From the NCBI GenBank assembly GCA_017650905.1, contig JAGCDZ010000097.1, positions 1 to 51,242 on the forward strand: 51,242 nucleotides of DNA, written 5' to 3'. Positions 33,550 to 49,210 of the stretch are shown one piece after another; the first letter of the stretch is position 1; every line of letters begins with the position of its first letter. Made by a program: the position numbers and the translations under genes. The notes under the pieces were generated by a model that saw only the letters and a program-made list of their open reading frames with translations, had not been told where the DNA came from and searched no databases. The stretch comes from Prevotella sp. (GTDB lineage: Bacteria; Bacteroidota; Bacteroidia; Bacteroidales; Bacteroidaceae).

Positions 33550-33581
33550 TTTGGTTCTATGATTTTTTTTTGCTATTTTTG
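33550..33581 (+). promoter_or_regulatory. Promoter of the signalling-NRPS operon
   Basis: TTTG, a 20-base spacer and TATTTTTG match the Bacteroidota consensus exactly; the ATG at 33610 follows 28 bases later. No other consensus promoter was seen before the end of the six-gene run at 47873. Confidence 0.8.
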
Positions 33582-33609
33582 CACACATAATTTAATGTAA
33601 CTAAAAAAT

Positions 33610-34773
33610 ATGCCAATCAAAATTCTTAGTGTAGACGACGAGATTGATCTCGAATTGCTGTTGACCCAATATTTCCGGAGACAGATCAGAAAGGGAGTAT
33701 ATGAGTTCAAGTTTGCCCACAACGGACTTGAGGCTCTTACAATGCTCCTAAAGGAAAAAGACTTCGATATTATCCTCAGTGATATCAATATGCCTGAAAT
33801 GGATGGACTGACTTTGTTGACCAAAATCAACGAGATGCAGAACCCAGCCTTGAAGTGCATTATGGTTTCTGCCTATGGTGATATGGGCAATATCCGTCAA
33901 GCAATGAACAACGGTGCCTTTGACTTTGCCACAAAACCCATCGACCTCGACGACCTGAGTGTTACCATTGAGAAAGCTATCGAACAGATCACCTACATCA
34001 AGCAGATGCAACAAGAGCATAACGAGTTGGAGGGGATCAAAGGCGACCTGGCCGTAGCCCGCGAGATCCAGCAGGCCATCCTGCCACGCATTTTCCCCCC
34101 ATTCCCCGAGAATGCCGCCCAGCTCGACATTGCAGCCTCAATGAATGCCGCTAAGGACGTAGGCGGCGACTTTTATGATTTCTTCCGCATCGATGATGAC
34201 CGCATCGGTTTCGTAATTGCTGATGTCAGCGGCAAAGGCGTGCCTGCCGCTATTTTCATGGCTGTGAGCCGGACACTCATCCGTGCAACGGGTATCAGGG
34301 GCGTCAGTTCATCGGAATGCATCACATATTCGAACGAACTATTGGAAAAAGAATCGGTCAACAATATGTTTGTAACTGTTTTCTATGGCATCTACAACAT
34401 CAAGACCGGAGAGGTGAAATATACAAATGCTGGCCACAACCCACCATACGTAGTGAAACAAAACGGCAGCCTGGAAAGACTTCCTGTGACCAGGAATATG
34501 GCAATTGGCATTTTTGGTGATTTCGAATATCAGGAAGAAACGCTCCAACTAGAACATGGTGATACGCTCCTACTCTACACTGACGGCGTGACGGAAGCCA
34601 TCAACCCAAGTGAAGAAGAATTCAAGGAAGAACGGTTGGAAACAACACTCAAGAGCACGACATTCGAATCTTGTCAACAAATGATTGATATCATCAAAGC
34701 TGATGTAAAAACATTCGCTGATGGTGCAGAACAAAGCGATGACATCACCCTGCTTGCACTGAAACGACTCTAA
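33610..34773 (+). CDS. Response regulator with PP2C (SpoIIE/RsbU-type) phosphatase output
   Basis: The 387-residue protein has an N-terminal receiver domain (1-125) with Asp9/Asp10, phospho-acceptor Asp58 (LSDINMPEMDG) and Lys109, then a short coiled linker (KQMQQEHNELEG) and a PP2C-type serine phosphatase domain (150-387) with metal ligands in DVGGDFYDF, VIADVSGKGVPAA and SDDITLLAL. In known systems such phosphatases act on anti-sigma-antagonist proteins; no such partner is encoded here. First gene of the operon, so it is the likely target of the two kinases downstream. Confidence 0.92.
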   Translation: MPIKILSVDDEIDLELLLTQYFRRQIRKGVYEFKFAHNGLEALTMLLKEKDFDIILSDINMPEMDGLTLLTKINEMQNPALKCIMVSAYGDMGNIRQAMNNGAFDFATKPIDLDDLSVTIEKAIEQITYIKQMQQEHNELEGIKGDLAVAREIQQAILPRIFPPFPENAAQLDIAASMNAAKDVGGDFYDFFRIDDDRIGFVIADVSGKGVPAAIFMAVSRTLIRATGIRGVSSSECITYSNELLEKESVNNMFVTVFYGIYNIKTGEVKYTNAGHNPPYVVKQNGSLERLPVTRNMAIGIFGDFEYQEETLQLEHGDTLLLYTDGVTEAINPSEEEFKEERLETTLKSTTFESCQQMIDIIKADVKTFADGAEQSDDITLLALKRL

Positions 34774-34784
34774 TCCAAACAAGC

Positions 34785-36350
34785 GTGGACAGAAAAACGA
34801 TTATAACAGGGTGTGCAGGACTTCTGCTTTTGGGTACGACGGCTACAGGAATTATAGGCTGGGAGTCGGAACACCAGAAAGTGAAAGAACTAGAGGAGCA
34901 GGTAGCTGCTCTGAGACAGCAGGAGATGCGTTCTGCCATCGACAGAAGCGTAAGCGCACAGATGGAGGAGATTGCTAATGAGCAAAGAGAAATCTCTGAT
35001 GAGAAGCGTGAAGAAGCCCTGCAACAAACACGCATCGCCAACGAGATGCGACTCCGGTCGGAAGTAGAACGGCAGAACGCTATTACCGCTGAAAGGAATG
35101 CTGTTGCCTCAGAGAAGAAAGCACTCGAGGCTTCTGAAGTGGCCGAGGCGCAGCGACAGATAGCTGAACACCAACGTATTCAGGCAGAGTTCTCAAAACG
35201 GACCGCCGACACACTGAGTTATATCAACCTGGGACGTTCGCTCGGCTCCATTTCCACCATCCAGTACCAGGCAGGCAATACCGAGATATCCGACCTGCTG
35301 AGCTACGCCTCCTATCTTTATACCCAGCGCTACGGGGGCGACATCTACTATCCAGCAGTTCTTGAGTCGCTGATGCGGTCGAGCCAGAGTGTCAATGTCT
35401 GGTCGGAACATACTGGTGCCGTCACCAATCTGGAGTATTTACCTGGTGATGATAACAAAATTGTCAGCGTCAGTAACTATGGTGAAATCCTGTTGAGTGA
35501 GCGCCAAGGCAATCAATTGAAGACGACCACCCTTTTTAACAATCCGGAATTCGACTTCCGCGACGTGATTGTCGTCAAGAGCACGGGTAACATCTATGCC
35601 GTCAGCCGAATAGGACAATTGGTGGTCATTAACAAGGAAACCATGACACCGAAGGTGATTATGCTGGAAAACATCGTCCACCCGTTGCGGGTACACGATA
35701 TCAACGAGAATACCCTTTTGATTATCGGGGAAACGAGCATCGGCTTGGTTGACCTAAAGCGCAGCATCGTGACAAGCGTCAAGCAACTGCCCTTCAAGTT
35801 TACCATGGGATCGCGCAAGAACAACCTGCCGCTGCTGTTCGATGATCAGGGAAAGATGCATCAGGTGTCGGGCTTAACCGACATCACTACAGAGGATGTG
35901 CCTGTGGAAGGCAAAGTGACAGCCTACTGTGAATCGAAAAATACCGGTATGGAGGCCTATGGCATGATAGACGGTACCATCTGGCTGAAAGACAAAAACG
36001 GAAAGCTACAGAAACTGGTGGGCCACCAGTCGCGCATCTCAAAGATGAAGATGAATGGCAGGCGTCTCTACTCGTCGAGTTACGACGGCAGTGTGAACCT
36101 GTGGATCTGTGATAACGAGAAGATTGAGCCCATGAAGCTGTGGCAGACCAACAATTGGATTATGAACTTCCAGCTCGACTCCACAAAAGAGACGTTCTGG
36201 ATGTGTGATGCGAAAGGCAACCTGACCGCGGTGAACATCAGCATCAACAAGATGGTGGACGCTATGAAGAAGAAACTCAAGCGAAACCTTACAACGGAAG
36301 AATGGAACTACTTCATCGGGCAGAATGTGCTTTACGAGAAGTTTATATAG
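34785..36350 (+). CDS. Membrane-anchored coiled-coil and WD40-like propeller protein
   Basis: The 521-residue protein has one N-terminal membrane helix (residues 5-24, TIITGCAGLLLLGTTATGII), a long Glu/Gln/Arg-rich coiled coil (30-145), and a C-terminal beta-propeller-like part (200-500) with WD40-type blade ends such as YSSSYDGSVNLWICDN. The last segment, RNLTTEEWNYFIGQN, is the short motif often ending bacterial WD40 proteins. The start is a GTG at 34785, 11 bases after the upstream stop; no ATG in frame would keep the membrane helix. It may act as a scaffold or sensor for the kinases (inference). Confidence 0.72.
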   Translation: MDRKTIITGCAGLLLLGTTATGIIGWESEHQKVKELEEQVAALRQQEMRSAIDRSVSAQMEEIANEQREISDEKREEALQQTRIANEMRLRSEVERQNAITAERNAVASEKKALEASEVAEAQRQIAEHQRIQAEFSKRTADTLSYINLGRSLGSISTIQYQAGNTEISDLLSYASYLYTQRYGGDIYYPAVLESLMRSSQSVNVWSEHTGAVTNLEYLPGDDNKIVSVSNYGEILLSERQGNQLKTTTLFNNPEFDFRDVIVVKSTGNIYAVSRIGQLVVINKETMTPKVIMLENIVHPLRVHDINENTLLIIGETSIGLVDLKRSIVTSVKQLPFKFTMGSRKNNLPLLFDDQGKMHQVSGLTDITTEDVPVEGKVTAYCESKNTGMEAYGMIDGTIWLKDKNGKLQKLVGHQSRISKMKMNGRRLYSSSYDGSVNLWICDNEKIEPMKLWQTNNWIMNFQLDSTKETFWMCDAKGNLTAVNISINKMVDAMKKKLKRNLTTEEWNYFIGQNVLYEKFI

Positions 36351-36362
36351 TGAAGCGTGAAT
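36349..36362 (-). repeat. Heptad array, stop-rich arm (AGTGAAG, CGTGAAT)
   Basis: Two 7-bp units begin within the stop codon of the coiled-coil gene. They are inverted relative to the four-unit array at 36426-36453. Confidence 0.65.
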
Positions 36363-36366
36363 AGTC

Positions 36367-39318
36367 ATGATGAAAGGAATTAATTATAATAATGTGAGAT
36401 GGTTGGTGAGCATGCTGACAGTACTGTTCACTATTCACTATTCACTCTTCACTGCATCCACTGCCTCTGCCCAGGGTATCCCCTATATCCGTAACTACAC
36501 CACAGAGGAGTATCACGGTAACAATAACAACTACGATATAGACATCGATGAGAACGGCAACATCTTTGTGGCCAACTTCGAGGGACTGATGTACTACGAC
36601 CATGCCCAATGGCGTATCATCCGCACGCCGGGCATCACGCGCGTTACCGTTGTTTACAGATCCACTTCAAATACAATCTGGGTGGGTGGCTACAACTATT
36701 TCGGCAGAATTATGACGAAAGAAAACGGTGAACTGGCCCTCACGAGAGTTGGCAAACCTGAACTGTTCAGGGGCGAAGTGACAGAAATCTATGAGCAGGG
36801 CGGAAAGTTGATGTTTTTCGTCAACAACGGCTCCATCTATGAGGTCGACGGCAACAAGGTGACATTGATGAAGTCCATCGACAAGAATCGGGTAAGAATC
36901 GGTATGATGGATGTGATAGACATCAATGCATTGGATAATGAAGGGGCGGAACTGGTCAAGAACGATACCGTGGAGACGGAGGAGTTGGACAACGGTCTGT
37001 CGGCAATCATCCGCAAGAACAATGGTATGCAGATAGCCGACGAGAACACCGGCAAAAGCTTTTATATCACCGACAAGAACGGACTTTGTTCAAATAACGT
37101 AACGTACACTGCCTATAACGAGTGCGGACAAATATGGGGAGCCACAGCGAAAGGTGTCTTCTCGATGCAGGTGCCTTCGGCCTATTCAAGGTTCACGCAT
37201 TATGAAGGACTCACCGGCGAGGTGCTATCGATACTGAAAGTTGACGGTACGATATATGTCGGTACTGATGACGGTCTGTATAGACTTAACGGACGGCAGT
37301 TTGAACATGTGACGAGTGTGAAATATGCCTGCTGGGATATGAAGAAGAGCAGCCAGGGAGGACTGTTGGCTGCCACTGCAGAAGGTGTATTCAGGATCTT
37401 TCCCAACGGCCAGTCAAAACAACTGTCGATACGTACGGCAACGGCTCTTTTGGAAGACGGACTGGACATTTATTGCGGTGAGCAGAACGGTGTATACCTG
37501 ATGGGGCCCAACGGTCAGGGGAAACGGAAAGTGTCTGGTCTGGAGAATGTCAGGAAAATCTTTAAGGACAACAATGGTACTATCTGGCTGCAAAGTCTTT
37601 ACGGAGAGGTGTGGTACAAGAAAACCGATGCCAAACTGTTCAGTCATTACCGCATCAAAAGCAAGACTGAAACGGTGTTGACATTCGTCGTAACAGGTCA
37701 GGAGGTGAAGGTGGTCAGTATAGAAGACACGAAGCCATTCCCCTACCCGCTCTTCTCCTATACCGACGAGAAAGACGTTACCTGGCTGACGGACAATGAG
37801 GGAAAGAACCTCTACCGCTGGAAGGACGGCAAGCGGCTGACAGATATGGATCAACTATTGTTTCCCCTGCACGAGATAACCATCCGCGCCATGTTTATTA
37901 ATGACGACAAGATATGGATTGGCAGCGACAACGGACTGACCGTCATCGACACCCGGATGAAGGAGCCGATGCTGGACATCAGTCCGCAACTCTTCATCCG
38001 TTCTGTCGTCTTAAACAGCGACAGCGTGCTCTGGGGCGGTTTCGGACTCATGCCGAAGGTGTTATCAGACCTGAACCACTCAGAGGACAACCTGTCATTT
38101 ACCTACTCTATCAACTATACACCCATTATAGGTAAGACTCTCTACAGATACCGACTGGACAATGACAAATGGAGTGCATGGTCGAACAATACCCATGCGA
38201 GTTATACCAATATTCCCGACTACGCCCACACGTTCTATGTTCAGGCAAAGGACGCCATGAACCGTGAGTCGGAGGTAGTCAGCATAGGGTTCTACATCAC
38301 CCCACCTTTCTACAGGCAGTGGTATATGTATCTGCTGTATGCCCTCATCTTAGCTGCCATCGTCTATGTCTTCGTTCAGTTAAGACTGCGAAAACTTGAG
38401 AGAGACAAGATACGGTTGGAACGCATTGTCCAGGACCGTACGGCAGAGGTTGTGAAGCAGAAAGATGAGATTGAAGAGAAGTCAAAGAGCCTGGAGATAG
38501 CCCTTCATGAACTGGGTGAAGCCCAGCACGAACTGATCCGCCAGGAGAAGATGGCTACTGTGGGTAAGTTGACGCAGGGACTGATCGACCGTATCCTGAA
38601 CCCGCTGAACTACATCAATAACTTTGCCAAGCTTTCGGAAGGTCTTGTGAAAGATATCGAAGCCAATATCGAGGACGATAAGGACAAGATGGATCCGGAC
38701 AACTACGACGACATTGTCGACGTGCTGGGTATGCTTCAGGGCAACCTGCAGAAAGTGGGCGAGCATGGTCAGAACACCACCCGTACCCTGAAAGCCATGG
38801 AGGAGATGCTGAAAGACCGCAGCGGTGGTATTGTGCCGATGAACCTTTCTGCTGTTGTCAGACAGGACGAGAAGATGCTGCAGGAGTATTACAAGGACGA
38901 TATTGCCCAGTATGGCATCCAGGTCAACCTCGACTGTCCTGAAGGAGAACTGAAGATTGACGGTAATGCGGAACAGTTGAGCAAGACCATCATGAGCCTG
39001 CTTGGCAATGCCGTCTATGCCCTCGTGAAGAAAGCCCAGCGTCAGAAGAACTTCACGCCGACCATCAATATCAGCGTCAAACCAGCGGCAGACACCGTTC
39101 AGGTGACCATCCGCGATAACGGTATCGGTATTGAAGATACCATCATCAACAAGATATTCGATCCCTTCTTCACGACGAAGACCACCGGTGAGGCTGCTGG
39201 TGTGGGACTGTATCTGAGCCGTGAAATCATACAGAATCACGGTGGGGACATCCAGGCCAAGTCGGTCAAGGATGAATTTAGCGAGTTTACCTTTACATTA
39301 CCCATCAATAAAGCATAG
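36367..39318 (+). CDS. Two-component-propeller hybrid sensor with a degenerate H-box
   Basis: The 983-residue protein has a signal peptide (1-36), a periplasmic two-propeller ligand sensor (about 40-560, Reg_prop-like repeats such as YVGTDDGLYRLNG and WIGSDNGLTVID), a Y_Y_Y domain (about 575-650, YRYRLDNDKWSAWSNN), a membrane helix near 660-680, a coiled coil, and a kinase core. In the dimerisation helix the usual AHE-x-x-NPL reads IDRILNPL, with Asp741 in place of the phospho-accepting His. The ATPase domain appears intact (GNAVYALV, DNGIGI, FDPFFTT, AGVGLYLS). It has no receiver or AraC output, so unlike classic hybrid systems it cannot pass phosphate onward by itself. The signal peptide is partly encoded by a heptad array. 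Confidence 0.9.
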   Translation: MMKGINYNNVRWLVSMLTVLFTIHYSLFTASTASAQGIPYIRNYTTEEYHGNNNNYDIDIDENGNIFVANFEGLMYYDHAQWRIIRTPGITRVTVVYRSTSNTIWVGGYNYFGRIMTKENGELALTRVGKPELFRGEVTEIYEQGGKLMFFVNNGSIYEVDGNKVTLMKSIDKNRVRIGMMDVIDINALDNEGAELVKNDTVETEELDNGLSAIIRKNNGMQIADENTGKSFYITDKNGLCSNNVTYTAYNECGQIWGATAKGVFSMQVPSAYSRFTHYEGLTGEVLSILKVDGTIYVGTDDGLYRLNGRQFEHVTSVKYACWDMKKSSQGGLLAATAEGVFRIFPNGQSKQLSIRTATALLEDGLDIYCGEQNGVYLMGPNGQGKRKVSGLENVRKIFKDNNGTIWLQSLYGEVWYKKTDAKLFSHYRIKSKTETVLTFVVTGQEVKVVSIEDTKPFPYPLFSYTDEKDVTWLTDNEGKNLYRWKDGKRLTDMDQLLFPLHEITIRAMFINDDKIWIGSDNGLTVIDTRMKEPMLDISPQLFIRSVVLNSDSVLWGGFGLMPKVLSDLNHSEDNLSFTYSINYTPIIGKTLYRYRLDNDKWSAWSNNTHASYTNIPDYAHTFYVQAKDAMNRESEVVSIGFYITPPFYRQWYMYLLYALILAAIVYVFVQLRLRKLERDKIRLERIVQDRTAEVVKQKDEIEEKSKSLEIALHELGEAQHELIRQEKMATVGKLTQGLIDRILNPLNYINNFAKLSEGLVKDIEANIEDDKDKMDPDNYDDIVDVLGMLQGNLQKVGEHGQNTTRTLKAMEEMLKDRSGGIVPMNLSAVVRQDEKMLQEYYKDDIAQYGIQVNLDCPEGELKIDGNAEQLSKTIMSLLGNAVYALVKKAQRQKNFTPTINISVKPAADTVQVTIRDNGIGIEDTIINKIFDPFFTTKTTGEAAGVGLYLSREIIQNHGGDIQAKSVKDEFSEFTFTLPINKA
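36426..36453 (+). repeat. Heptad array, open arm, inside a coding sequence
   Basis: GTTCACT, ATTCACT, ATTCACT and CTTCACT stand in tandem and are translated as FTIHYSLFT in the signal peptide of the propeller sensor. Four units, as in R1-R4 of the atp operon. Confidence 0.9.
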
Positions 39319-39322
39319 CACT

Positions 39323-40150
39323 ATGGAACAGATGGAACAGATTGAACAACTTAGGGAGCAACTCAAGAAACAGGAGAAGCTGGCATCACTGGGTATCCTC
39401 AGTGCAGGTATTGCCCATGAAATACAGAATCCGCTGAACTTTGTCATCAACTTCAGCAAGATGTCAGACAAACTCCTCAGGGATTTAGAGGAGATTGTGG
39501 CAGACAACGAGGACAAGTTGCCTGAGGATGACCGTGAGGAGCTCGACGACATTGTTGCCGACCTGAAGGAGAACCTGTCGAAGATTGTGGAGCATGGTGA
39601 GCGTGCCATCAGTATCATCCAGGGCATTCTGCTCGTCTCGCGCGGCAAGGAAGGTGAATTGTTGCCAACAAACGTCTGCAAACTGGTCAAGGAGTATGTA
39701 TGGCTCTCCTATCATGCCATGCGTGCCAACCATAAAGGCTTCAATCTCACCATCCGTGAGCAATATGACGAAAGCATCCCTCAGACGATGGTCATCCCAC
39801 AGGATCTGAGTCGCGCTGTGCTGAACGTAATGAACAATGCCTGCTATGCCGTCTGGAAAAAAGCTCAGACGGGTGATGGCAGTTATCAGCCGGAAATCTG
39901 TGTCAAGGTGGAAGCGCAAAATGGACAGATTGTCATCACGCTGAAAGACAATGGTGAAGGTATGAGCGAGGAAACTCAGAAGCGACTCTTTGAGAACTTC
40001 TACACCACCAAGCCAGTCGGTCAAGGTACTGGTCTTGGCATGGCCATCACCCGCGACATCATCGAAAACAAACACGGCGGAAAATTGACCTTCGCCTCGA
40101 AGGAAGGAGAAGGGACAGCATTTACATTTACCATCCCAATCAAAAAGTGA
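39323..40150 (+). CDS. Small soluble histidine kinase
   Basis: The 275-residue protein has no membrane helix. A short coiled start (MEQMEQIEQLREQLKKQEK) leads to an H-box with the phospho-accepting His32 (AGIAHEIQNPLNF) and an ATPase domain with N-box NNACYAV, G1 DNGEGM and G2 GQGTGLGMA. ATG 39323 lies 4 bases after the upstream stop; the longer frame overlapping the previous gene is not used. It supplies the His missing from the neighbouring sensor, and the two kinase cores align well with each other by eye, suggesting gene duplication or a split kinase pair. Confidence 0.88.
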   Translation: MEQMEQIEQLREQLKKQEKLASLGILSAGIAHEIQNPLNFVINFSKMSDKLLRDLEEIVADNEDKLPEDDREELDDIVADLKENLSKIVEHGERAISIIQGILLVSRGKEGELLPTNVCKLVKEYVWLSYHAMRANHKGFNLTIREQYDESIPQTMVIPQDLSRAVLNVMNNACYAVWKKAQTGDGSYQPEICVKVEAQNGQIVITLKDNGEGMSEETQKRLFENFYTTKPVGQGTGLGMAITRDIIENKHGGKLTFASKEGEGTAFTFTIPIKK

Positions 40151-40182
40151 TTTCACATCACAACGATTGATTATCAATACGA

Positions 40183-43100
40183 ATGGTTACTACAGACTCA
40201 AAAACCGCGATATTTATCAAATGGCTGGTGGATTCTTTTGAGAAATGTCCTCAAGAGATAGCCGTCATTGATGACGCCGGCAAACGGAAAACCACTTACG
40301 AAGAGTTGTATGTGATGGCATGTAGGGTGGTTGGCTATACGAGAAAGCGACAACTGCCTGCCCACTCTTTTATTGGAATCTGTCTGCCTACGAGTATGGA
40401 GTATATTGCTGCAGAAATCGGCATCTGGTTGGCGGGACATGCCATCGTGCCGATGGGCGACCAGTTCCCGGAATCCCGTATCAAGCAGATTATGGAGCAT
40501 TCTGATTCACCATTGCTGATTGATGAGAAGGTGATGAGTGAGATAGCATCCACAGAACCAGTTGAGCCTTCTATGCTTCCGGGAGAAGATGATATCAACT
40601 CCATGTTCTACACATCAGGAAGTACAGGTAAGCCCAAGGGCGTTCTGCATTCTTTCCGTTCGTTTGGTATTCCTCTTTTCCCCGACGAGATGTTCAAGGA
40701 TCTGGACGTTTCGGTCATGGCGGTCACGGCCCCTATGTTCTTTGTGGCCTGTAAGCTGATCTATGATTTCGTGACACGTGGCAAGACGGTAAACATCGTG
40801 CCGCCTGCTGTGAGAATGGATATCCGTAAGCTTGAAGATTTTCTGGCACAGCAGGAAATCGAGTTTGTATTTATTCCCCCTTCGGTATTACCCTACTTCA
40901 ATAACAAATCACAATCCTTAAAAGTGGTGTTCACGGCTTCTGAACGAGTGTCGGGGGTCGGTCCTAAGGGCTATAAGATGGTCAATTACTGCGGTCAGAC
41001 AGAAACAGCGGGCATCGGTGCGACATTCATGGTCGACAAGCCCTACGACAATACACCCATTGGCATTCCTGTAGAACCTTATATATATAGTGTGCAGGAT
41101 GAGGACGGTAATGAGGTGCCTTTTGGAGAAGAAGGAGAACTTTGCTATCGTGGAGACCTGACGCCAGGCTACTATAAAGATCCTGAGCGTACGGCACAAC
41201 TCTATCGTGGTGGATGGCTTCATACGGGCGACATCGTACGTGCACGTCCTGACGGCAACCTGATCTATGTAAACCGTAAGGACTGGATGATGAAAATCAA
41301 CGGTCAGCGTGTAGAGCCAAGTGAAGTGGAGACCGTCTTCAAGAAACTTCCAGGAATCGACAATGCCATCGTCAAGGGCTTTACAGCAGGGAACAAACGT
41401 CAGTATCTTGTCGGTTACTACATCTCCAAGAGTGGTGTGGGAGAAAAGGAAATCACCGACTATCTGTCGTCGAAACTGCCTTCCTATATGGTACCGGTCT
41501 ATTTTGTAAAAATGGACAGTTTCCCGCTGAATATGAACGGGAAGACCGACCGGAACAGCTTACAGTCGCCAGCTGTGGAAGATGACACCATCGTCAGGGA
41601 ACCCTATGAGGCGCCACAGAATGAGGTAGAGGCAAAACTATGTCAGGCTTTCGAACGTTCGCTGGGACATAGTCAGATTGGCGTAAACGAAGATTTCTTC
41701 ATGTTGGGTGGCGACAGCATCCGGGTGATGAAACTGCAGACACTCTGTTCAGAACTCTCATTGACGGCGAGGATCATCTATACGAACCGAACACCTCGTA
41801 AGATAGCTGAAGCCATTGGAAAGGAAAGCGAGGTTAGCTTTGAACGGCAGGATGATTATCCACTGAGCCAAGCACAGTTGGGTATCTTTGCCGCATGTAT
41901 GGCACGACAGGGAGAAGTGGCCTATAATAATGGTGTATTGTTACAACTGGGCAACGGCGTAGACCTGTCTCGTTTAGCTAAAGCCTGCGAGACCATGGTC
42001 GAAACCCATCCGTTTGTCAAGACCCGTCTGTTTATTGACAGCGAGGGAAATCCCCGTCAACGTCGCAATGACGATGAACCTTATCAGCAAGAAATAGAGA
42101 GTATAAGCGACACCGACTTTGAACAGTTACGTTCTCAGTTGATGCAGCCGTTCTTTCTATTGGCAGACCGTCTGTTCCGCATTCATCTGTTCCACACACC
42201 AACTACAGCCTACCTCTTCATGGACTTCCACCACATCATATTCGACGGCTATTCCTTTGAGGTACTCATTGACGACTTGAACAAGGCCTACAACGGTCAG
42301 TCTATAGAGCCAGAGACATGGAGTGGTTTTGAGGTTGCCCAGGAGGAAGAGATGATACGCCAATCAGAAGCCTATCAGCAGGCCGTTATATGGAACAAAG
42401 AACGGTTTGGCAAGCTCGACGTGGTCTCTCCGCCAAAAGGCGACCGACGTGATGAGATTGTTGCTTTCGCAAAGGCGGACTTGTTGCTGGACATAAGTCT
42501 TCAGGAGTTGGAAGAAGCCTGCCGCGAAATGGGGGTTACTCCTAATGTATTGACAACTACCGTTATGGGGTATCTGTTAGGTGTCTATTCCCATTCTCAG
42601 GAGTCTCTTTTTGCCACTATATATAATGGTCGTAAGGACATCAGGACCACACGTACGGTCGGTATGCTGGTGAAGACTCTGCCTGTGCATGTGTGTTGGC
42701 AACAGCAGCAAACCGTTCGTGATTTGCTTCAGGCTGTCAAGCAGCAGCTGTTGGGCAGTATGAGCAACGACCTTTATTCTTTCAACGAATTGAATGCGCT
42801 GAACAGCTATGTCAACAGTCATGTGCTGTTTGCCTGGCAGGGCGACCTGATAACATCAGACACCATTGTTGGTCAACCCTATCGTCAGCTGCCCATTATG
42901 GAGAATGCTACTGGCGAAATGCTGGTCATGCAACTGTTCCGTCAGGACGATGGACTTCAGCTCATCACAGAATACCAAACAAACGTCTATTCCCAGATAT
43001 TCATTGCACGCATGATGCAGTGTTACCGTCAGCTGCTTCACAATTTCATAGAAGCAGCCGTCGATGACAAGCCCTTGTCTGTTCTTCCCTTGATTTCTGC

Positions 43101-45477
43101 TGACGAACAAGCAGCCCTCATTTCATTAAGTACGGGAGAGCGCATGGACTATGATATCACTCAGACCTTTACGAGTCTGTTTGTGAAACAGGCTGCACAA
43201 ACGCCTGATGCTATAGCTATTGTCGACAAGGACACATCAATTACTTATGCAGAATTGGATCGTCAGTCAAACATCCTGGCTGCCGTTCTGCGCAATGCCC
43301 AGGTTGGCACTGATACTTTTGTCGGACTGATGCTACCACGTCGCATCTGCTTCATGACTACTGTTCTGGCTGTCTTCAAGGCGGGAGGTGCCTATATTCC
43401 ATTAGACTACAATTATCCCCCAAGTCGTTTGAAGCATATGCTTGATGACTCTCAAGCCAATATTCTAATTACGACAAGAAAGATACTGGAGAATCAAAGA
43501 AACGAAAGCGCATTCAACGTCAAGACTGTTATTCTTCTTGACGATGTCGACTTCTCTGTCAATAGCACTCCCATTAACAACAGTTTACCTTCGTCATTGG
43601 CCTATATGATCTACACCTCTGGATCGACAGGACTCCCCAAAGGTGTTATGGTTGAACATAGAGGTCTACTCAATTTCCTTCAATGGTTACTGAAGATAGA
43701 ACAATTAAAGGTTGACGAGCAGGTCGCTGTTCATACGAACTTCAGTTTTGACGGTTCCGTCTTCGACCTTTTTCCACCACTCATGTGTGGTGCCACTCTC
43801 CATATCCTACCAGCTTCGCTACAACAAGACCTTAAGGGCATCTACTGTTATCTGGTAGATAATAAGATTACAGGTATGCTGCTGACTACCCAGCTGGGTA
43901 TGGCCATGCAGATGCAAAATGACCTACCACTCCGTTTCCTGATGCTGGGTGGCGAGAAACTCACCAATTTCAAGCCCTCAAGCTTGCAGCTCTTCAACTG
44001 TTACGGTCCCACCGAGTTCACTGTATGTTCGTCATATTTCCCGATAGACCAGAATCGCAGCTATGACAACATTCCAATCGGGCGTCCTGCGCCAAACACA
44101 ATCTCCGTAGTTGTTGATACCGCAGGTCGGTTGGTTCCACGCGGTGTTGCTGGCGAGCTCTGTCTGTTAGGGTGTCAGTTATCACGAGGCTATTGGAAGC
44201 AACATGAACTGACAGCAAAGAAGTTTCTACCCTGCCCGTTCATACCTGGCAACCTCATGTATTGTACGGGGGATTTGGTACGTTGGAACGAAGAAGACCA
44301 ACTGGAGTTCTTAGGGCGTATCGACAGTCAGGCTAAGCTGCGCGGTTTCCGCATAGAGTTAGGTGAGATAGAAAATAAGATCCGTGAATATCCGAATGTC
44401 ACCGATGCCGCCGTAGTGATTCAAAACAGTGGTAAGGCACAGTATCTTGTGGGGTTTTATTGTGCAGATTATAATATTGTACCCGATATGTTACGCCAGA
44501 CATTAGCAGAACATTTGCCCGACTACATGATACCACAGCTGTTCATAAAACTCGACAGTCTGCCAATGACACCAAACGGCAAAGTAGACCGAAAAGCATT
44601 GACTGCCTATAAGAGCACAGGCATAGGGCGACCGGCAATGGAGGCAGCCCATAACAGCCGTGAACAGTTTATCCTCGACTTGGCACACGACCTACTCGGA
44701 ACCAACGAGTTTGGCGTTACCGACGACCTCACTATGTTGGGACTAAACTCGTTGACAGCTATCAGCTTAGTAGCAATGACCAGTTCAAAAGGCATTGAAT
44801 TGAAGGTGAACGATGTGCTCCGCCTGAAGACCATCGAGAAGATTGCTGCCCATAAGGCTACTATTGGCGACTGGGCACAGGGGTATGATGCCCACAAGCC
44901 CGTTGCGGTAGTCATCCAAGGTCTTACTTCCTATAATCTGCTCCTTCCCTTAATCGCTGCCTTGTGCCAGCATCATTCTGTATTTGTCATCGAACCCCTT
45001 CAGGAGCATTTCGACAAGCTCTTTGCAGGCAAGACCAAAGCAGACATTGTAGCCGCCTATGCCGAACTGATAAAAAAGAGCATACCTGCTGATGCACAGA
45101 TCAGTGCCTTTGTCGGACACAGCTATGGTGGAGAGTTCTGTCTCCGTTGCGCCGTTAAATGGCAATCTGAGATAGGGCAGTCGCCAAGAGTCATCCTGTT
45201 CGACACCTATTTCAATGCGTTGAATGTGTTGAAGAAGATGCGACACATGCAGGAATATGTTAAGCCTATCGAAGACGGTACCCCTATGCCATACTATAGT
45301 GGCACCGTGGACTATTTCGAAGCCACCCAAATGTCATACCGTCAATTGAAAGAAGACAACGAAAAGTCTTGGAAGCAGCTGTTACCACACATGACTGTCC
45401 ATCCTGTGGCCACCAGCCATTTCAAATTGTTGGAAAAACAGAATATAAACTATTGCATGTCACAAATTGAAACATAA
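40183..45477 (+). CDS. Dimodular non-ribosomal peptide synthetase (A-T-C-A-T-TE)
   Basis: The 1764-residue enzyme is predicted to join two building blocks and release the product. A1 spans about 15-460 (TSGSTGKPKG at 144-153, Lys454 in MNGKTDR). T1 carries Ser512 (LGGDSIRV). The C domain (about 575-960) has HHIIFDG at 683-689. A2 (about 1000-1475) has YTSGSTGLPKG near 1144 and Lys1467. T2 carries Ser1523 (GLNSL). TE has Ser1647 in GHSYGG with His1746 near the end. A1 has NYCGQTE, as in acyl-CoA ligases, and Phe where amino-acid-activating domains have Asp235, so it may load a carboxylic acid rather than an amino acid. A2, aligned by eye, reads D-G-F-L-M-G-C-V-C-K, partly like isoleucine codes. 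No phosphopantetheinyl transferase or MbtH gene is in the window. Confidence 0.95.
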   Translation: MVTTDSKTAIFIKWLVDSFEKCPQEIAVIDDAGKRKTTYEELYVMACRVVGYTRKRQLPAHSFIGICLPTSMEYIAAEIGIWLAGHAIVPMGDQFPESRIKQIMEHSDSPLLIDEKVMSEIASTEPVEPSMLPGEDDINSMFYTSGSTGKPKGVLHSFRSFGIPLFPDEMFKDLDVSVMAVTAPMFFVACKLIYDFVTRGKTVNIVPPAVRMDIRKLEDFLAQQEIEFVFIPPSVLPYFNNKSQSLKVVFTASERVSGVGPKGYKMVNYCGQTETAGIGATFMVDKPYDNTPIGIPVEPYIYSVQDEDGNEVPFGEEGELCYRGDLTPGYYKDPERTAQLYRGGWLHTGDIVRARPDGNLIYVNRKDWMMKINGQRVEPSEVETVFKKLPGIDNAIVKGFTAGNKRQYLVGYYISKSGVGEKEITDYLSSKLPSYMVPVYFVKMDSFPLNMNGKTDRNSLQSPAVEDDTIVREPYEAPQNEVEAKLCQAFERSLGHSQIGVNEDFFMLGGDSIRVMKLQTLCSELSLTARIIYTNRTPRKIAEAIGKESEVSFERQDDYPLSQAQLGIFAACMARQGEVAYNNGVLLQLGNGVDLSRLAKACETMVETHPFVKTRLFIDSEGNPRQRRNDDEPYQQEIESISDTDFEQLRSQLMQPFFLLADRLFRIHLFHTPTTAYLFMDFHHIIFDGYSFEVLIDDLNKAYNGQSIEPETWSGFEVAQEEEMIRQSEAYQQAVIWNKERFGKLDVVSPPKGDRRDEIVAFAKADLLLDISLQELEEACREMGVTPNVLTTTVMGYLLGVYSHSQESLFATIYNGRKDIRTTRTVGMLVKTLPVHVCWQQQQTVRDLLQAVKQQLLGSMSNDLYSFNELNALNSYVNSHVLFAWQGDLITSDTIVGQPYRQLPIMENATGEMLVMQLFRQDDGLQLITEYQTNVYSQIFIARMMQCYRQLLHNFIEAAVDDKPLSVLPLISADEQAALISLSTGERMDYDITQTFTSLFVKQAAQTPDAIAIVDKDTSITYAELDRQSNILAAVLRNAQVGTDTFVGLMLPRRICFMTTVLAVFKAGGAYIPLDYNYPPSRLKHMLDDSQANILITTRKILENQRNESAFNVKTVILLDDVDFSVNSTPINNSLPSSLAYMIYTSGSTGLPKGVMVEHRGLLNFLQWLLKIEQLKVDEQVAVHTNFSFDGSVFDLFPPLMCGATLHILPASLQQDLKGIYCYLVDNKITGMLLTTQLGMAMQMQNDLPLRFLMLGGEKLTNFKPSSLQLFNCYGPTEFTVCSSYFPIDQNRSYDNIPIGRPAPNTISVVVDTAGRLVPRGVAGELCLLGCQLSRGYWKQHELTAKKFLPCPFIPGNLMYCTGDLVRWNEEDQLEFLGRIDSQAKLRGFRIELGEIENKIREYPNVTDAAVVIQNSGKAQYLVGFYCADYNIVPDMLRQTLAEHLPDYMIPQLFIKLDSLPMTPNGKVDRKALTAYKSTGIGRPAMEAAHNSREQFILDLAHDLLGTNEFGVTDDLTMLGLNSLTAISLVAMTSSKGIELKVNDVLRLKTIEKIAAHKATIGDWAQGYDAHKPVAVVIQGLTSYNLLLPLIAALCQHHSVFVIEPLQEHFDKLFAGKTKADIVAAYAELIKKSIPADAQISAFVGHSYGGEFCLRCAVKWQSEIGQSPRVILFDTYFNALNVLKKMRHMQEYVKPIEDGTPMPYYSGTVDYFEATQMSYRQLKEDNEKSWKQLLPHMTVHPVATSHFKLLEKQNINYCMSQIET

Positions 45478-45488
45478 ATCCATATCGT

Positions 45489-47873
45489 ATGATGAGAATA
45501 TACATCGCAGTCATCACACTGATGCTCTTCCTTGCAGTGCCAGCATCAGCCCAGGATATCTACTCACAGGCCGAGAATGCCTATAAGATAGGTCGTATCG
45601 ACTCTGCGCTTGTGTTGTTGAAGAGTCATGAAAGCAGTTTTCATGGTACCGATAAGCAGAGAGCTTACCGACTCATGTCGCTCTGTTGTCTCGCTCTCGA
45701 CCAGACAGAGGAGTCTGAGAGATATGCAGGTCTGCTATTAAAGGAGAACAAGTACTTCTTCGGCTCACTGGAAGACCCAGTTCGCTTTGTCGACATGATC
45801 AACAAATTAAGAGAGGGAAGCGGAACCACCATCAAGACGGCATCCGGTCAGGAAGAGTATATTGAGGAGGCACCTGTGCCTGTCACTATCATCACACGTG
45901 AGATGATAGATATGCTCAGTAACAATAAAAGTATCGGGCAGATTCTCGCTACGTATGTTCCAGGTATGAGTGAGGTCTGCTCTTATGCTTTTGCCAACGT
46001 CACCATGCACGGCGTTTATACAAATGGACAGGAGAAAATCCTTGTGATGGAGAACGGCCACCGATTGAATGCACGTTCTACCAATAACGGCAAATTAGAC
46101 TATGCCATCAGTACTGAGAAGATTGATCATATAGAGGTGCTGCGCGGTCCTGCTTCTTCGTTGTATGGTAACGTGGCTTTGACAGCCGTGGTAAATATCA
46201 TCACTAAAAAGGGTAACGAAATCAATGGTGTAAAAGGGAAATACGGTTTAGGTTCTTATGGAACACACCGTGCCGACCTCACTGCAGGTACGACGTTCTT
46301 AGGAGCTGACGTGATGGCTTGGGCATCTTTGTACACTTCAAGTGGAAAACGAATTGACGTTCCAATGGGTACCGGCTATTCAATGACCCAGCACGATGGC
46401 TATGCATACGTGGGTAAATATGAAGGACGTCCATCCTATGACCTCGGTGTTAACATACAACTGAACGACTTCAGTCTGATGTTTAATCGCAAGTATGGGA
46501 AAATGGTTCCCCAGTATTCCTGGTATGCTGAGACCTACGACTATGACCGCTTCCGTAAGTTCTGCGGTGTCAATCCGGGGTATTCCATTGACGAGACCCA
46601 TCTCGAATTGGCTTATAATAAAGATCTCGGCAAATCCAATATTAATTTGGCAATATATGGCGACTGGTATAAGTTCCAGGATTATCAGGCCGTTTCTGAT
46701 TCCATGATTACCTATGAATTCAAGCCCGATGGCAGCGGGACACCGGTGATTGACGACCAAGGAAAACCTGTGATGCGTCTTTATCACGGCGTATATCAGG
46801 ACGACAACTGGGAAGAATACACCATTGGTGGTATGGCAAAGTTCTCTACGAATTACAAAATCGGAAAGGCCCATGGTAATCTGCTTGCGGGAGCCCAATT
46901 TGAATTCTATAAGATTCCCATCAACGAATTCTTCTTCGGCGAGGAGTACAACCGTATCATTATCGTGACTACACCTGAATCTGCGAATCAGTTGAACGTA
47001 GGATCGGAAAAGAGTATCTCGGGTTTCATTCAGGGAAAACACTACTTCACAGATCAGTTCATCCTCAATGCCGGCCTACGCTACGACAAGAAGTTCCGTC
47101 GCAACGACATGAGCGTTTCGGCCTTGTCGCCACGAATTGCCCTTATCTATCTTCCCTCGAACAAGTTCAGTGTCAAGACGTCATATTCGCGATCGTTTGT
47201 TGATGCACCCTATTTTTATCGCCAGAATACACAGAACACCTATCGTGGAAGTGAAGACCTGATGCCGGAATATATGGATGCCATACAACTTGACTTCTTA
47301 GGTTCTCCCTTCAGCCATTTCATTTATGATGTCAATTTATTCTATAACCGTCTGACAGACCTGATATGCAATAATCAGAGTACCGATCTGAATGCTCCGA
47401 AATACGTTAATTCCGGTAATCTGAAGATTGCAGGCGTCGAGGTGGAACTCAGTTACAACATAGCCTCATTCCGTTCCCGACTCAGTACCACCTTGCAGTA
47501 TGCCCTCAGTGCCGAGCAATATTATTATGATGACCACAACATCTATAGTGTGCCGAGGTACATTGCCAGTTTAACCTGTGAGCAACGCCTGCTAAACAAA
47601 GACAAGCAATCGTTGTGGCTGTCTGGCAACCTACGTTATACATCTCGTACGCTCAACAAGGCAAACTCTCGCATCAAGGACAGTGAGGACTTCCACCTCA
47701 GTGGTAATGCATTGTTAGACCTGCGACTGAAATACAATTACAACAAAATGATTCAATTGTCGCTCGATTGCGAAAACGTGTTCAACAACATTTACGAGAT
47801 TGGTGGCACTTCCTATATCCCTTATCAATATCCCGGTCGCATATTAATGGGAACGGTATCGGTTAGACTATAA
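45489..47873 (+). CDS. TonB-dependent outer-membrane receptor with an N-terminal helical extension
   Basis: The 794-residue protein has a signal peptide (1-22). Residues 23-115 form a helical, TPR-like region (QAENAYKIGRIDSALVLLK, AYRLMSLCCLALDQTEESERY) instead of the carboxypeptidase-like domain usual in SusC proteins. The plug follows (about 125-245: PVPVTIITREMIDMLS, KILVMENGHRLNAR, IEVLRGPASSLYGNVALTAV), then a 22-strand-type barrel. No SusD partner follows. It resembles siderophore/vitamin-type receptors and ends the NRPS operon, 11 bases after the synthetase, so it may import the NRPS product or sense it. Confidence 0.93.
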   Translation: MMRIYIAVITLMLFLAVPASAQDIYSQAENAYKIGRIDSALVLLKSHESSFHGTDKQRAYRLMSLCCLALDQTEESERYAGLLLKENKYFFGSLEDPVRFVDMINKLREGSGTTIKTASGQEEYIEEAPVPVTIITREMIDMLSNNKSIGQILATYVPGMSEVCSYAFANVTMHGVYTNGQEKILVMENGHRLNARSTNNGKLDYAISTEKIDHIEVLRGPASSLYGNVALTAVVNIITKKGNEINGVKGKYGLGSYGTHRADLTAGTTFLGADVMAWASLYTSSGKRIDVPMGTGYSMTQHDGYAYVGKYEGRPSYDLGVNIQLNDFSLMFNRKYGKMVPQYSWYAETYDYDRFRKFCGVNPGYSIDETHLELAYNKDLGKSNINLAIYGDWYKFQDYQAVSDSMITYEFKPDGSGTPVIDDQGKPVMRLYHGVYQDDNWEEYTIGGMAKFSTNYKIGKAHGNLLAGAQFEFYKIPINEFFFGEEYNRIIIVTTPESANQLNVGSEKSISGFIQGKHYFTDQFILNAGLRYDKKFRRNDMSVSALSPRIALIYLPSNKFSVKTSYSRSFVDAPYFYRQNTQNTYRGSEDLMPEYMDAIQLDFLGSPFSHFIYDVNLFYNRLTDLICNNQSTDLNAPKYVNSGNLKIAGVEVELSYNIASFRSRLSTTLQYALSAEQYYYDDHNIYSVPRYIASLTCEQRLLNKDKQSLWLSGNLRYTSRTLNKANSRIKDSEDFHLSGNALLDLRLKYNYNKMIQLSLDCENVFNNIYEIGGTSYIPYQYPGRILMGTVSVRL

Positions 47874-47961: not shown

Positions 47962-47992
47962 TTTGCAATTTGCGAGAAAAGTTGTACCTTTG
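47962..47992 (+). promoter_or_regulatory. Promoter of the AAA ATPase gene
   Basis: TTTG, a 19-base spacer and TACCTTTG match the Bacteroidota consensus. The ATG at 48020 is 27 bases downstream. It marks the end of the NRPS operon. Confidence 0.8.
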
Positions 47993-48019: not shown

Positions 48020-49210
48020 ATGGAGGCTTTTTTCAGGACGCACAGATATCTCGTAGAGCATACCAACGCACCGGTTCGTCGTACCCTCATGGACGAAATC
48101 AACTGGAGCGACCGCCTTATTGGCATCAAGGGTACCAGAGGTATCGGAAAAACCACCTTCCTATTGCAATACGCCAAAGAGCATTTTGATATCAATGACC
48201 GCCAGTGTCTGTATATCAACATGAACAACTTCTACTTCCAGGGGCACGGTATTGCTGACTTTGCCGGAGAATTCTATCATCATGGAGGTCGCACGCTCCT
48301 CATTGACCAGGTGTTCAAACAGCCAGACTGGAGCAGCGAACTGCGCAAATGCCACGACCTCTACCCCAACCTCAAGATTGTTTTCACGGGTTCGAGTGTG
48401 ATGCGCCTGAAGGATGAGAATCCTGAACTCAACGGCATCGTACAGTCATATAACCTGAGAGGCTTCTCCTTCCGCGAGTTCATCAATCTGCTGACAGGCA
48501 ATAACTTCCGCCCTTATACCCTTGAGGAAATCCTTAAGGATCATGAGCGCATCATCAAACAGATTCTTCCGAAGGTGTCGCCTAACCGCTATTTCCAGGA
48601 TTATATCCACCACGGTTTCTATCCCTTCTTCCAGGAGCACCGTAATTACAGCGAGAACCTGCTGAAGACTATGAATATGATGACTGAGGTGGACATCCTC
48701 CTCATCAAGCAGATTGAGTTGAAGTATCTCACCAAGATCAAGAAACTTTTCTACCAGATTGCCGAAGAAGGTTCGAAGAAGTCACCCAATGTGAGCAAAC
48801 TCGCTAACGACATTGAGACTTCGCGTGCCACTGTGATGAACTATATCAAGTATCTCACAGATGCCCGCCTGCTCAATCTTATCTATCCTGTTGGCGAGGA
48901 TTTCCCCAAGAAGCCTGCCAAGGTGATGCTCCACAACTCTAACCTGCTCTATGCCATCTATCCCATTCAAGTAGAGAAGCAGGAGGCAATGGAGACTTTC
49001 TTCGTCAACTCGATGTGGAAAGACCATAAAGTGAATACAGGCGGACGTGACTGCAACTATCTGGTCGACGGCAAGTTGAAATTCCGCATCATGGATGCCC
49101 AACAGATGCAACGCACAAAGATCCAGCCCGACGTGATTTATGCAAGATACAACACAGAAATAGGACGAGGAAACCAAATTCCTCTCTGGTTATTGGGCTT
49201 TTTATATTAG
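48020..49210 (+). CDS. AAA_14/DUF4143-like ATPase
   Basis: The 396-residue protein has a P-loop GTRGIGKT (38-45), a Walker-B-like strand RTLLIDQVF (Gln after the Asp instead of the more usual Glu), sensor-like IVFTGSS, and a C-terminal winged-helix part (SKLANDIETSRATVMNYIKYL) typical of the DUF4143 region. Such ATPases are widespread in gut Bacteroidota with no agreed function. It has its own promoter. Confidence 0.85.
   Translation: MEAFFRTHRYLVEHTNAPVRRTLMDEINWSDRLIGIKGTRGIGKTTFLLQYAKEHFDINDRQCLYINMNNFYFQGHGIADFAGEFYHHGGRTLLIDQVFKQPDWSSELRKCHDLYPNLKIVFTGSSVMRLKDENPELNGIVQSYNLRGFSFREFINLLTGNNFRPYTLEEILKDHERIIKQILPKVSPNRYFQDYIHHGFYPFFQEHRNYSENLLKTMNMMTEVDILLIKQIELKYLTKIKKLFYQIAEEGSKKSPNVSKLANDIETSRATVMNYIKYLTDARLLNLIYPVGEDFPKKPAKVMLHNSNLLYAIYPIQVEKQEAMETFFVNSMWKDHKVNTGGRDCNYLVDGKLKFRIMDAQQMQRTKIQPDVIYARYNTEIGRGNQIPLWLLGFLY

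Follow-up and report, generated by a model that had tools for sequence, protein, structure and literature searches.

A conserved signaling cassette of Prevotella in which a TonB-dependent receptor and an adjoining peptide synthetase appear to be exchanged as a pair

We analyzed a six-gene locus on a 51,242-nucleotide stretch of Prevotella sp. DNA (GenBank contig JAGCDZ010000097.1, here contig C96 of genome G000, which is 71.6% complete; the whole stretch is called the window). The locus encodes a receiver (REC) domain joined to a SpoIIE-type PP2C phosphatase (gene 1), a membrane-anchored WD40-like propeller protein (gene 2), a propeller sensor that resembles a histidine kinase (gene 3, the pseudokinase), a small histidine kinase (gene 4), a non-ribosomal peptide synthetase (NRPS, gene 5) and a TonB-dependent receptor (gene 6). 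Comparison of related loci, hereafter cassettes, showed that the four signaling genes and the TonB receptor are the conserved unit, and that the NRPS is cargo. As judged from the trees described below, the receptor and this type of NRPS appear to be transferred together while the signaling chassis stays the same. We read the cassette as a FecA-like surface signaling system that combines elements of two-component signaling and partner switching with a ligand module open to exchange and a self-made ligand, and we give this reading a probability of roughly 55%.

In a tree of 50 receptors, the cassettes in which the NRPS follows the kinase form one clade (SH-aLRT 98), with a single change of class where 8.1 were expected. 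In the tree of genes 1–3 from the same 50 rows this class is scattered and requires eight changes; shuffled labels gave a mean of 9.35 and a minimum of 7. The signaling data reject these rows as a single clade (p-AU 5e-13). Trees of 100 rows gave one change for the receptor versus eight for the signaling genes. When 83 cassettes were analyzed part by part, the receptor barrel and plug each required one change and the N-terminal domain of the receptor two, whereas REC, PP2C, the WD40 coil and propeller, the sensor and kinase parts of the pseudokinase, and the kinase required seven to nine changes each (shuffled means 9.4–9.7). Because the NRPS class is a clade on the receptor tree and scattered on the signaling trees, receptor and synthetase seem to belong together, which supports the functional link between them that had been proposed from the sequence of this locus (the original prediction). 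Receptors longer than 700 residues with a class label made up a tree of 111 rows, 100 of which also had genes 1 and 2; the 50-row trees were composed of 10 and 15 synthetase rows having both genes, plus every third of the 75 others. Tandem receptors were scored as lacking an NRPS, using the first copy, the incomplete loci L154, L156, L159, L005 and L161 were omitted from the receptor trees, and the receptors of G050 and G169 are identical.

The same pattern is seen in the nearest named relative (L250), whose signaling genes are 90, 82, 74 and 82% identical to those of the window; its receptor is 41% identical and is followed by a different synthetase. For this NRPS type, the NRPS–receptor pair was not found scattered apart from the signaling genes: relatives of the NRPS with 47–91% identity across the greater part of its length, or of what survives of it, have cassette genes beside them in 15 of 15 genomes, on whatever flank the contig holds (G280, G050, G169, G381, G323, G431, G433, G212, G285, G393, G067, G171, G081, G399 and the window; in G399 the receptor alone). 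Weaker matches of 34–45% (G258, G371, G392, G342) showed no cassette in the stretch that was read, the boundary between strong and weak matches having been drawn after both groups were seen. Partial matches of 36–40% also occur in G032, G037, G052 and G396, the neighbors of which are outside this count.

It is the receptor and not the propeller that follows the synthetase, and therefore the receptor is most likely the part that recognizes the ligand. On these trees, ligand specificity does not appear to reside in either propeller. The propeller as the ligand-specific sensor was considered and is less likely, as the tree of the pseudokinase sensor does not track this NRPS type (eight changes, versus 9.7 when shuffled). 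The original prediction had left the choice between propeller sensor and receptor; the receptor is the likelier of the two.

The WD40 gene, the most specific marker of the cassette, was found at E ≤ 1e-40 in 136 of 398 genomes of the genus (Prevotella, by named relatives). At a looser cut-off it was present in 44 of 149 relatives and 12 of 60 genera, the matches outside the genus being mostly weak and in longer proteins; one genome from another family, G144, holds the whole cassette (L117). The 38 named loci belong to Prevotella or Prevotellaceae, one of the 38 being filed only as Bacteroidales, and ruminant hosts (sheep, yak, water buffalo, red deer, cattle) are mentioned in several of their titles. 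We read 125 cassettes from 110 genomes; about 20 listed places, some nine of them near contig ends, were left out, as were fragments, unlisted matches and one false pseudokinase match (L136). Genes 1, 2 and 3 occur in this order in at least 108 of the 125, a lower bound because gene 1 was unrecognized in 17 loci, some of them affected by contig ends or by losses in calling open reading frames (ORFs).

A kinase with the H-box motif adjoins gene 3 in 101 of the 125 cassettes. Two of the 24 loci without it are contig ends (L128, L171), and 15 of the other 22 are in genomes that hold a kinase-bearing cassette. The kinase of G279 sits in a second locus (L234), where the reading frame of gene 3 is split, and that of G157, G252, G168 and G429 is located elsewhere in the genome. 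No cassette-type kinase was found in any of four cassette-free genomes. The idea that cassettes without a kinase keep the His in gene 3 was rejected, as the Asp described below is present in those too. The receptor is present in nearly every locus with enough sequence (exceptions L196, L226 and L244; split frame in L127).

By synthetase content, the 125 cassettes comprise 12 with the NRPS after the kinase, 19 with a synthetase after the receptor, 76 with none, six with tandem receptors and 12 that are cut or unclear. The receptor comes next in 10 of the 12, and the contig ends first in L156 and L159. Three more partial loci (L154, L005, L161) and three named loci (L264–L266, which overlap with the unnamed set) also have the NRPS after the kinase. 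Four of the synthetases after the receptor were found by Pfam to contain AMP-binding and PP-binding domains, and three of these Condensation as well; the remainder were labeled by BLAST similarity alone, and L131, with an NRPS two genes past the receptor, was set by hand as synthetase-bearing. Of the six families in the original prediction, the four signaling genes and the receptor thus form the conserved unit, to which the NRPS, absent from most cassettes (76 with none and six with tandem receptors), does not belong. Synthetase cassettes without an adjoining gene 1 or kinase were also observed (L191, L193, L195, L197), and a kinase of 60–61% identity is found elsewhere in each of these genomes.

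Between its signal peptide and plug, the receptor carries an N-terminal domain of approximately 90 residues that is present in 115 of 115 aligned cassette receptors (those longer than 700 residues), with or without an NRPS. A profile of this domain found six matches in five cassette genomes, one per cassette, and none in five cassette-free genomes, so that it is cassette-specific among the 10 genomes searched. The family TPR_2 weakly matches 22 of 27 members (best 5e-5), and the copy of the window gives no match at E ≤ 1; a profile search of the PDB gave no solved relative below E 0.18. No STN domain was detected in the receptor at E ≤ 0.001 or in the N-terminal domain of the window at E ≤ 1, and STN is absent among the best 25 of 41 families matching 27 relatives of the domain. 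When receptors of cassettes with this NRPS are compared with those of synthetase-free cassettes, identity is lowest in the barrel (0.30), rises to 0.45 in the N-terminal domain and is highest in the plug (0.59). Two or three tandem TonB receptors follow the kinase in L168, L169, L178, L203, L205 and L211; in L168, L169, L203 and L205 the first is approximately 41% identical to the receptor of the window and the second 31–35%.

The motif residues of the receiver and phosphatase of gene 1 are invariant or nearly so across 108 aligned rows. Mean identity is 0.85 for REC, the best-conserved part measured, and 0.61 for PP2C, and both the phosphorylation site and the PP2C motifs are retained. The protein thus combines a receiver with a SpoIIE phosphatase that has what we take to be the metal-binding Asp residues, the combination by which a receiver-PP2C partner-switching protein is recognized. 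Gene 2 has a hydrophobic segment at residues 6–24, and its WD40 matches in Pfam are below the cut-off.

Gene 3, with a hydrophobic segment at residues 651–677, has G-L-[IV]-D-R-[IL]-x-N-P where gene 4 has G-I-A-H-E-I-Q-N-P. At the position of the phospho-accepting His, all 125 cassettes have an Asp (D741 in the window). The Asn of the N-box is likewise present in 125 of 125, and the glycines of the G1 and G2 boxes in 124 (one gap), so that the ATP site is retained; with the His replaced and the other boxes kept, gene 3 is a pseudo-histidine-kinase. Because the ATP site is retained and the Asp fixed, the sequence argues for a functional rather than a decaying protein, although it would not be expected to act as an ordinary kinase without the phospho-accepting His. 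This supports the split kinase pair that had been predicted, a propeller sensor without its His and a small kinase. The start of gene 4 was placed at the ATG at position 39323; a longer ORF with a GTG at 39221 would overlap gene 3.

The six ORFs lie on the forward strand (Table 1), separated by 11, 16, 4, 32 and 11 bases, and their order, families (domain calls on the window proteins are by Pfam) and spacing of 4–32 bases are as originally described. The Bacteroidota promoter consensus is TTTG-N-TAnnTTTG. The predicted promoter ahead of gene 1 matches it exactly, and the pattern occurs seven times in the window versus 0.74 expected, a number reached in none of 100 shuffles. A pattern scan of the window gave no second match within the six genes, and none of the 13 terminator-like sites of the region (11.4 expected) lies in the gaps between them. 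These signals agree with the single operon of the original prediction, and the six genes are predicted to form one transcription unit, which likely ends before the promoter of the next gene. This gene, at 48020–49210, encodes an AAA_14/DUF4143-like ATPase; its relatives, mostly 83–95% identical and thereby well above most neighboring genes, lie within 8 kb behind the cassette receptor in 33 of 96 loci with enough sequence.

Table 1. Features of the six-gene locus and its flank in the window.
Feature	Position	Strand	Basis
Promoter, Bacteroidota type (TTTG-N-TAnnTTTG)	33550..33581	+	Exact match to consensus
Gene 1, receiver (REC) and SpoIIE-type PP2C phosphatase	33610..34773	+	PF00072, PF07228
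Gene 2, N-terminal membrane anchor, coiled coil and WD40-like propeller	34785..36350	+	Weak Pfam WD40 matches
Gene 3, propeller sensor pseudo-histidine-kinase	36367..39318	+	Reg_prop, Y_Y_Y (below cut-off), HATPase_c; no HisKA
Codon of Asp741 at the phospho-acceptor His position (GLIDRILNP)	38587..38589	+	Aligned with GIAHEIQNP of gene 4
Gene 4, small histidine kinase, HisKA and HATPase, His present, no hydrophobic segment	39323..40150	+	Pfam, H-box motif
Gene 5, NRPS (A-T-C-A-T-TE)	40183..45477	+	Two AMP-binding, one Condensation and two PP-binding stretches (Pfam)
Gene 6, TonB-dependent receptor with TPR-like N-terminal domain	45489..47873	+	Pfam Plug and TonB barrel
TPR-like N-terminal domain of the receptor	45552..45818	+	Aligned cassette receptors; weak TPR_2 similarity in relatives
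Separate promoter ahead of the next gene (AAA ATPase)	47962..47992	+	Promoter-pattern match

Within the NRPS we identified the motifs YTSGSTG, LGGDS, HHIIFDG, LGLNS and GHSYGG. The predicted order of adenylation (A), carrier (T), condensation (C) and thioesterase (TE) domains holds for A, T and C by Pfam; for the thioesterase there is the GHSYGG motif at position 45115 and no Pfam call in the window, and the C-terminus of one relative matches PF00975 below the cut-off. An Asp in A domains binds the amino group of the substrate. In an alignment read by eye, the first A domain lacks this Asp (a Phe aligns there) and the second has it in FDGS. Given the first A domain without Asp, and since the motifs of the carrier, condensation and thioesterase domains are all in place, the likeliest product would be an acyl- or aryl-amino-acid.

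Receiver-PP2C phosphatases usually act on STAS proteins that are held by RsbW-type kinases, and genes of both types are present in G000. Among 108 cassettes, 11 (L106, L117, L126, L132, L186, L209, L218, L225, L226, L238, L241) have a STAS or RsbW-type gene no more than 1 kb from a cassette end, and in nine of these the distance is at most 60 bases; four of the 11 loci supplied seeds to the profile. An RsbW-type kinase (E ≤ 1e-15) was found in all but one of the 136 cassette genomes, the exception being 50% complete, and in 120 of the 262 genomes without a cassette. The output of the PP2C may run through STAS/RsbW partner switching, a route that the original prediction does not mention. Five cassettes (L152, L153, L157, L158, L161) have a gene for a MATE-type exporter 6–11 bases after the receptor. 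In G381 and G323 (L152:16322-18097, L153:16541-18310) this exporter has a C-terminal RsbW-type HATPase_c_2 domain, identified by Pfam on the L152 copy and by genome matches for both; the exporters of L158 and L161 were judged from their N-termini. The copies of G285 and G323 are 88 and 81% identical to that of L152 over nearly the full length. From its domains, the MATE exporter may be a direct target of partner switching. Genome G000 has a second NRPS locus (C103, 44794–52911, partly covered by L002 and L003), and about 1.5 kb upstream of it, in the same orientation, are genes for a STAS protein and an RsbW-type kinase, a hint that the link between partner switching and an NRPS is not confined to one case.

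In the mechanism that we propose, the TonB-dependent receptor would bind an extracellular molecule, in the window genome most likely the product of the adjoining NRPS (an acyl- or aryl-amino-acid or a short peptide). The TPR-like domain of the receptor, in the periplasm, would relay binding to the propellers of gene 2 (if located within its reach) and/or gene 3. Gene 3 would then set the balance of kinase and phosphatase activity of the soluble kinase encoded by gene 4, which would phosphorylate the receiver of gene 1. The PP2C would dephosphorylate an RsbV-like STAS protein, and this protein could capture the RsbW-type kinase and so free the target of that kinase. The cell would respond to a molecule made by itself and its clonemates; the sequences suggest that some of these Prevotella-like gut bacteria may sense their own molecule. 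We infer a loop of sensing, making and retrieving, as in the original prediction.

Several observations weigh against this interpretation. Most cassettes have no synthetase nearby, so that a general role in self-sensing is impossible; the synthetase-free cassettes have to detect something different, perhaps molecules from neighbors or from the host diet. On the 50-row receptor tree, four of 25 sampled synthetase-free receptors (L203, L168, L172, L187) lie among the NRPS-linked ones, and the receptors of small-synthetase cassettes L174, L221, L114, L179 and L188 lie on the side of the common type. The label "any synthetase" partly clusters on the signaling trees (7–14 changes versus about 21 when shuffled; five on the receptor tree), which weakens a claim of full independence. 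The genomes G190 and G398, which have kinase-less cassettes, contain no cassette-type kinase at E ≤ 1e-50. As to the output, the best STAS/RsbW pair of G000 sits on another contig (C52), so that the target of the PP2C is a guess, and 10 other SpoIIE-type matches in G000 (11 including gene 1) could own the STAS/RsbW partners. The association of RsbW-type kinases with cassette genomes, though strong, ignores ancestry and serves only as support.

A different explanation is that the locus serves uptake and its regulation. The NRPS compound would be siderophore-like or scavenging, the receptor would re-import it as food or as a metal carrier, and the signaling genes would regulate the operon on an unrelated cue perceived by the propeller of gene 3. 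Receptor–NRPS pairing is indeed usual for siderophores, and the solved structures that match the receptor in sequence, in the region of the plug, are receptors for colicin I, B12, heme and siderophores. We consider this unlikely, though worth serious attention: the conserved N-terminal domain, cassette-only in the 10 genomes searched, would be superfluous for a plain importer, the receptor stays in the cassette even without a synthetase, and Pfam identified no gene for catechol or hydroxamate tailoring among the six genes. Enzymes for iron-chelating building blocks, or iron regulation, would mark a siderophore locus; Pfam showed none among the six genes, the part of the genome that was covered. 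The N-terminal domain, kept in all aligned receptors and restricted to cassettes in the 10 genomes, also speaks against the view that genes 5 and 6 are co-transcribed passengers at an insertion hot spot without a functional tie to genes 1–4. Repeated exchange of cargo on the same chassis would fit such passengers, an explanation that we regard as very improbable.

The MATE exporters behind five receptors, with an RsbW-type ATPase domain in two genomes, could instead indicate an antagonistic product that is exported, the cassette sensing the cell's own or a rival's compound and switching on export or protection. At E ≤ 1e-30, however, no MATE exporter was found in the window genome (71.6% complete), G280, G050, G169, G067 or G431, and G433 has only a match of 25% identity elsewhere in its genome. 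No immunity gene was recognized among the six genes, to which that search was limited. This explanation therefore seems improbable, if somewhat less so than that of passenger genes.

Within the surface-signaling reading, a bolder version is tentative and less likely than not: NRPS and receptor would be swapped together between lineages on a fixed phospho-signaling chassis, forming private chemical channels, with the signal passing from the TonB receptor through the pseudokinase with its fixed Asp to the PP2C. If true, this would be a new type of self-sensing in bacteria, a Gram-negative, outer-membrane counterpart of the exchangeable specificity modules of quorum sensing. To our knowledge, signaling by TonB receptors is known mainly through anti-sigma/extracytoplasmic function (ECF) sigma pairs; an alternative route in about one third of the sampled genomes of the genus (136/398) would explain the sensing of large or unusual molecules beyond the outer membrane. 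The paired exchange also offers a handle on the purpose of Prevotella NRPS products, since the sensor of each product is identified by its matching receptor, and one assay based on the constant chassis would serve for many uncharacterized products. That a kinase should keep its ATP site intact and yet have an invariant Asp poses a clear biochemical question.

Each type of part in the cassette is known. In the open-access literature, which misses most subscription papers, we found no description of their assembly into this gene set, in line with the original prediction, nor of the receptor's N-terminal domain or the fixed Asp. FecA-FecR-FecI is a cell-surface signaling system, and the cassette resembles it in that regulatory genes share a locus with a TonB-dependent receptor whose periplasmic part includes an additional N-terminal domain. 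It differs in that STN, the FecR anti-sigma and the ECF sigma factor are replaced by a pseudokinase, kinase, WD40 anchor and receiver-PP2C; Pfam found no FecR or ECF sigma gene among the six genes and the scanned neighbors. We therefore class the cassette with cell-surface signaling by its mode of action but keep it apart from the Fec family, since the domains that define that family were looked for and not found. The hybrid two-component systems of Bacteroides use Reg_prop/Y_Y_Y sensors, and a propeller sensor with a Y_Y_Y domain is shared with them. Here, in contrast to the single chain of such systems, the kinase lacks its His, gene 3 ends in HATPase_c without a fused receiver or AraC domain, the receiver is in gene 1, and the output is a PP2C in that separate gene. 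With RssB/RsbU-type proteins the cassette shares a REC domain and a SpoIIE phosphatase with catalytic residues, and STAS/RsbW genes in the genome that sometimes adjoin; RssB is the best NCBIfam match of gene 1 (125.8 bits, far under the cut-off of 700). What sets gene 1 apart from those proteins is its coupling to a split pair of kinases and to a TonB receptor. The closest known logic to that of gene 3 is that of DivL of Caulobacter, in which the phospho-accepting His is replaced by Tyr, the other kinase boxes are retained, as in gene 3, and kinase activity is absent (PMC4211667). DivL pairs its Tyr with PAS domains, whereas gene 3 pairs an invariant Asp with a propeller sensor and usually stands beside a small kinase.

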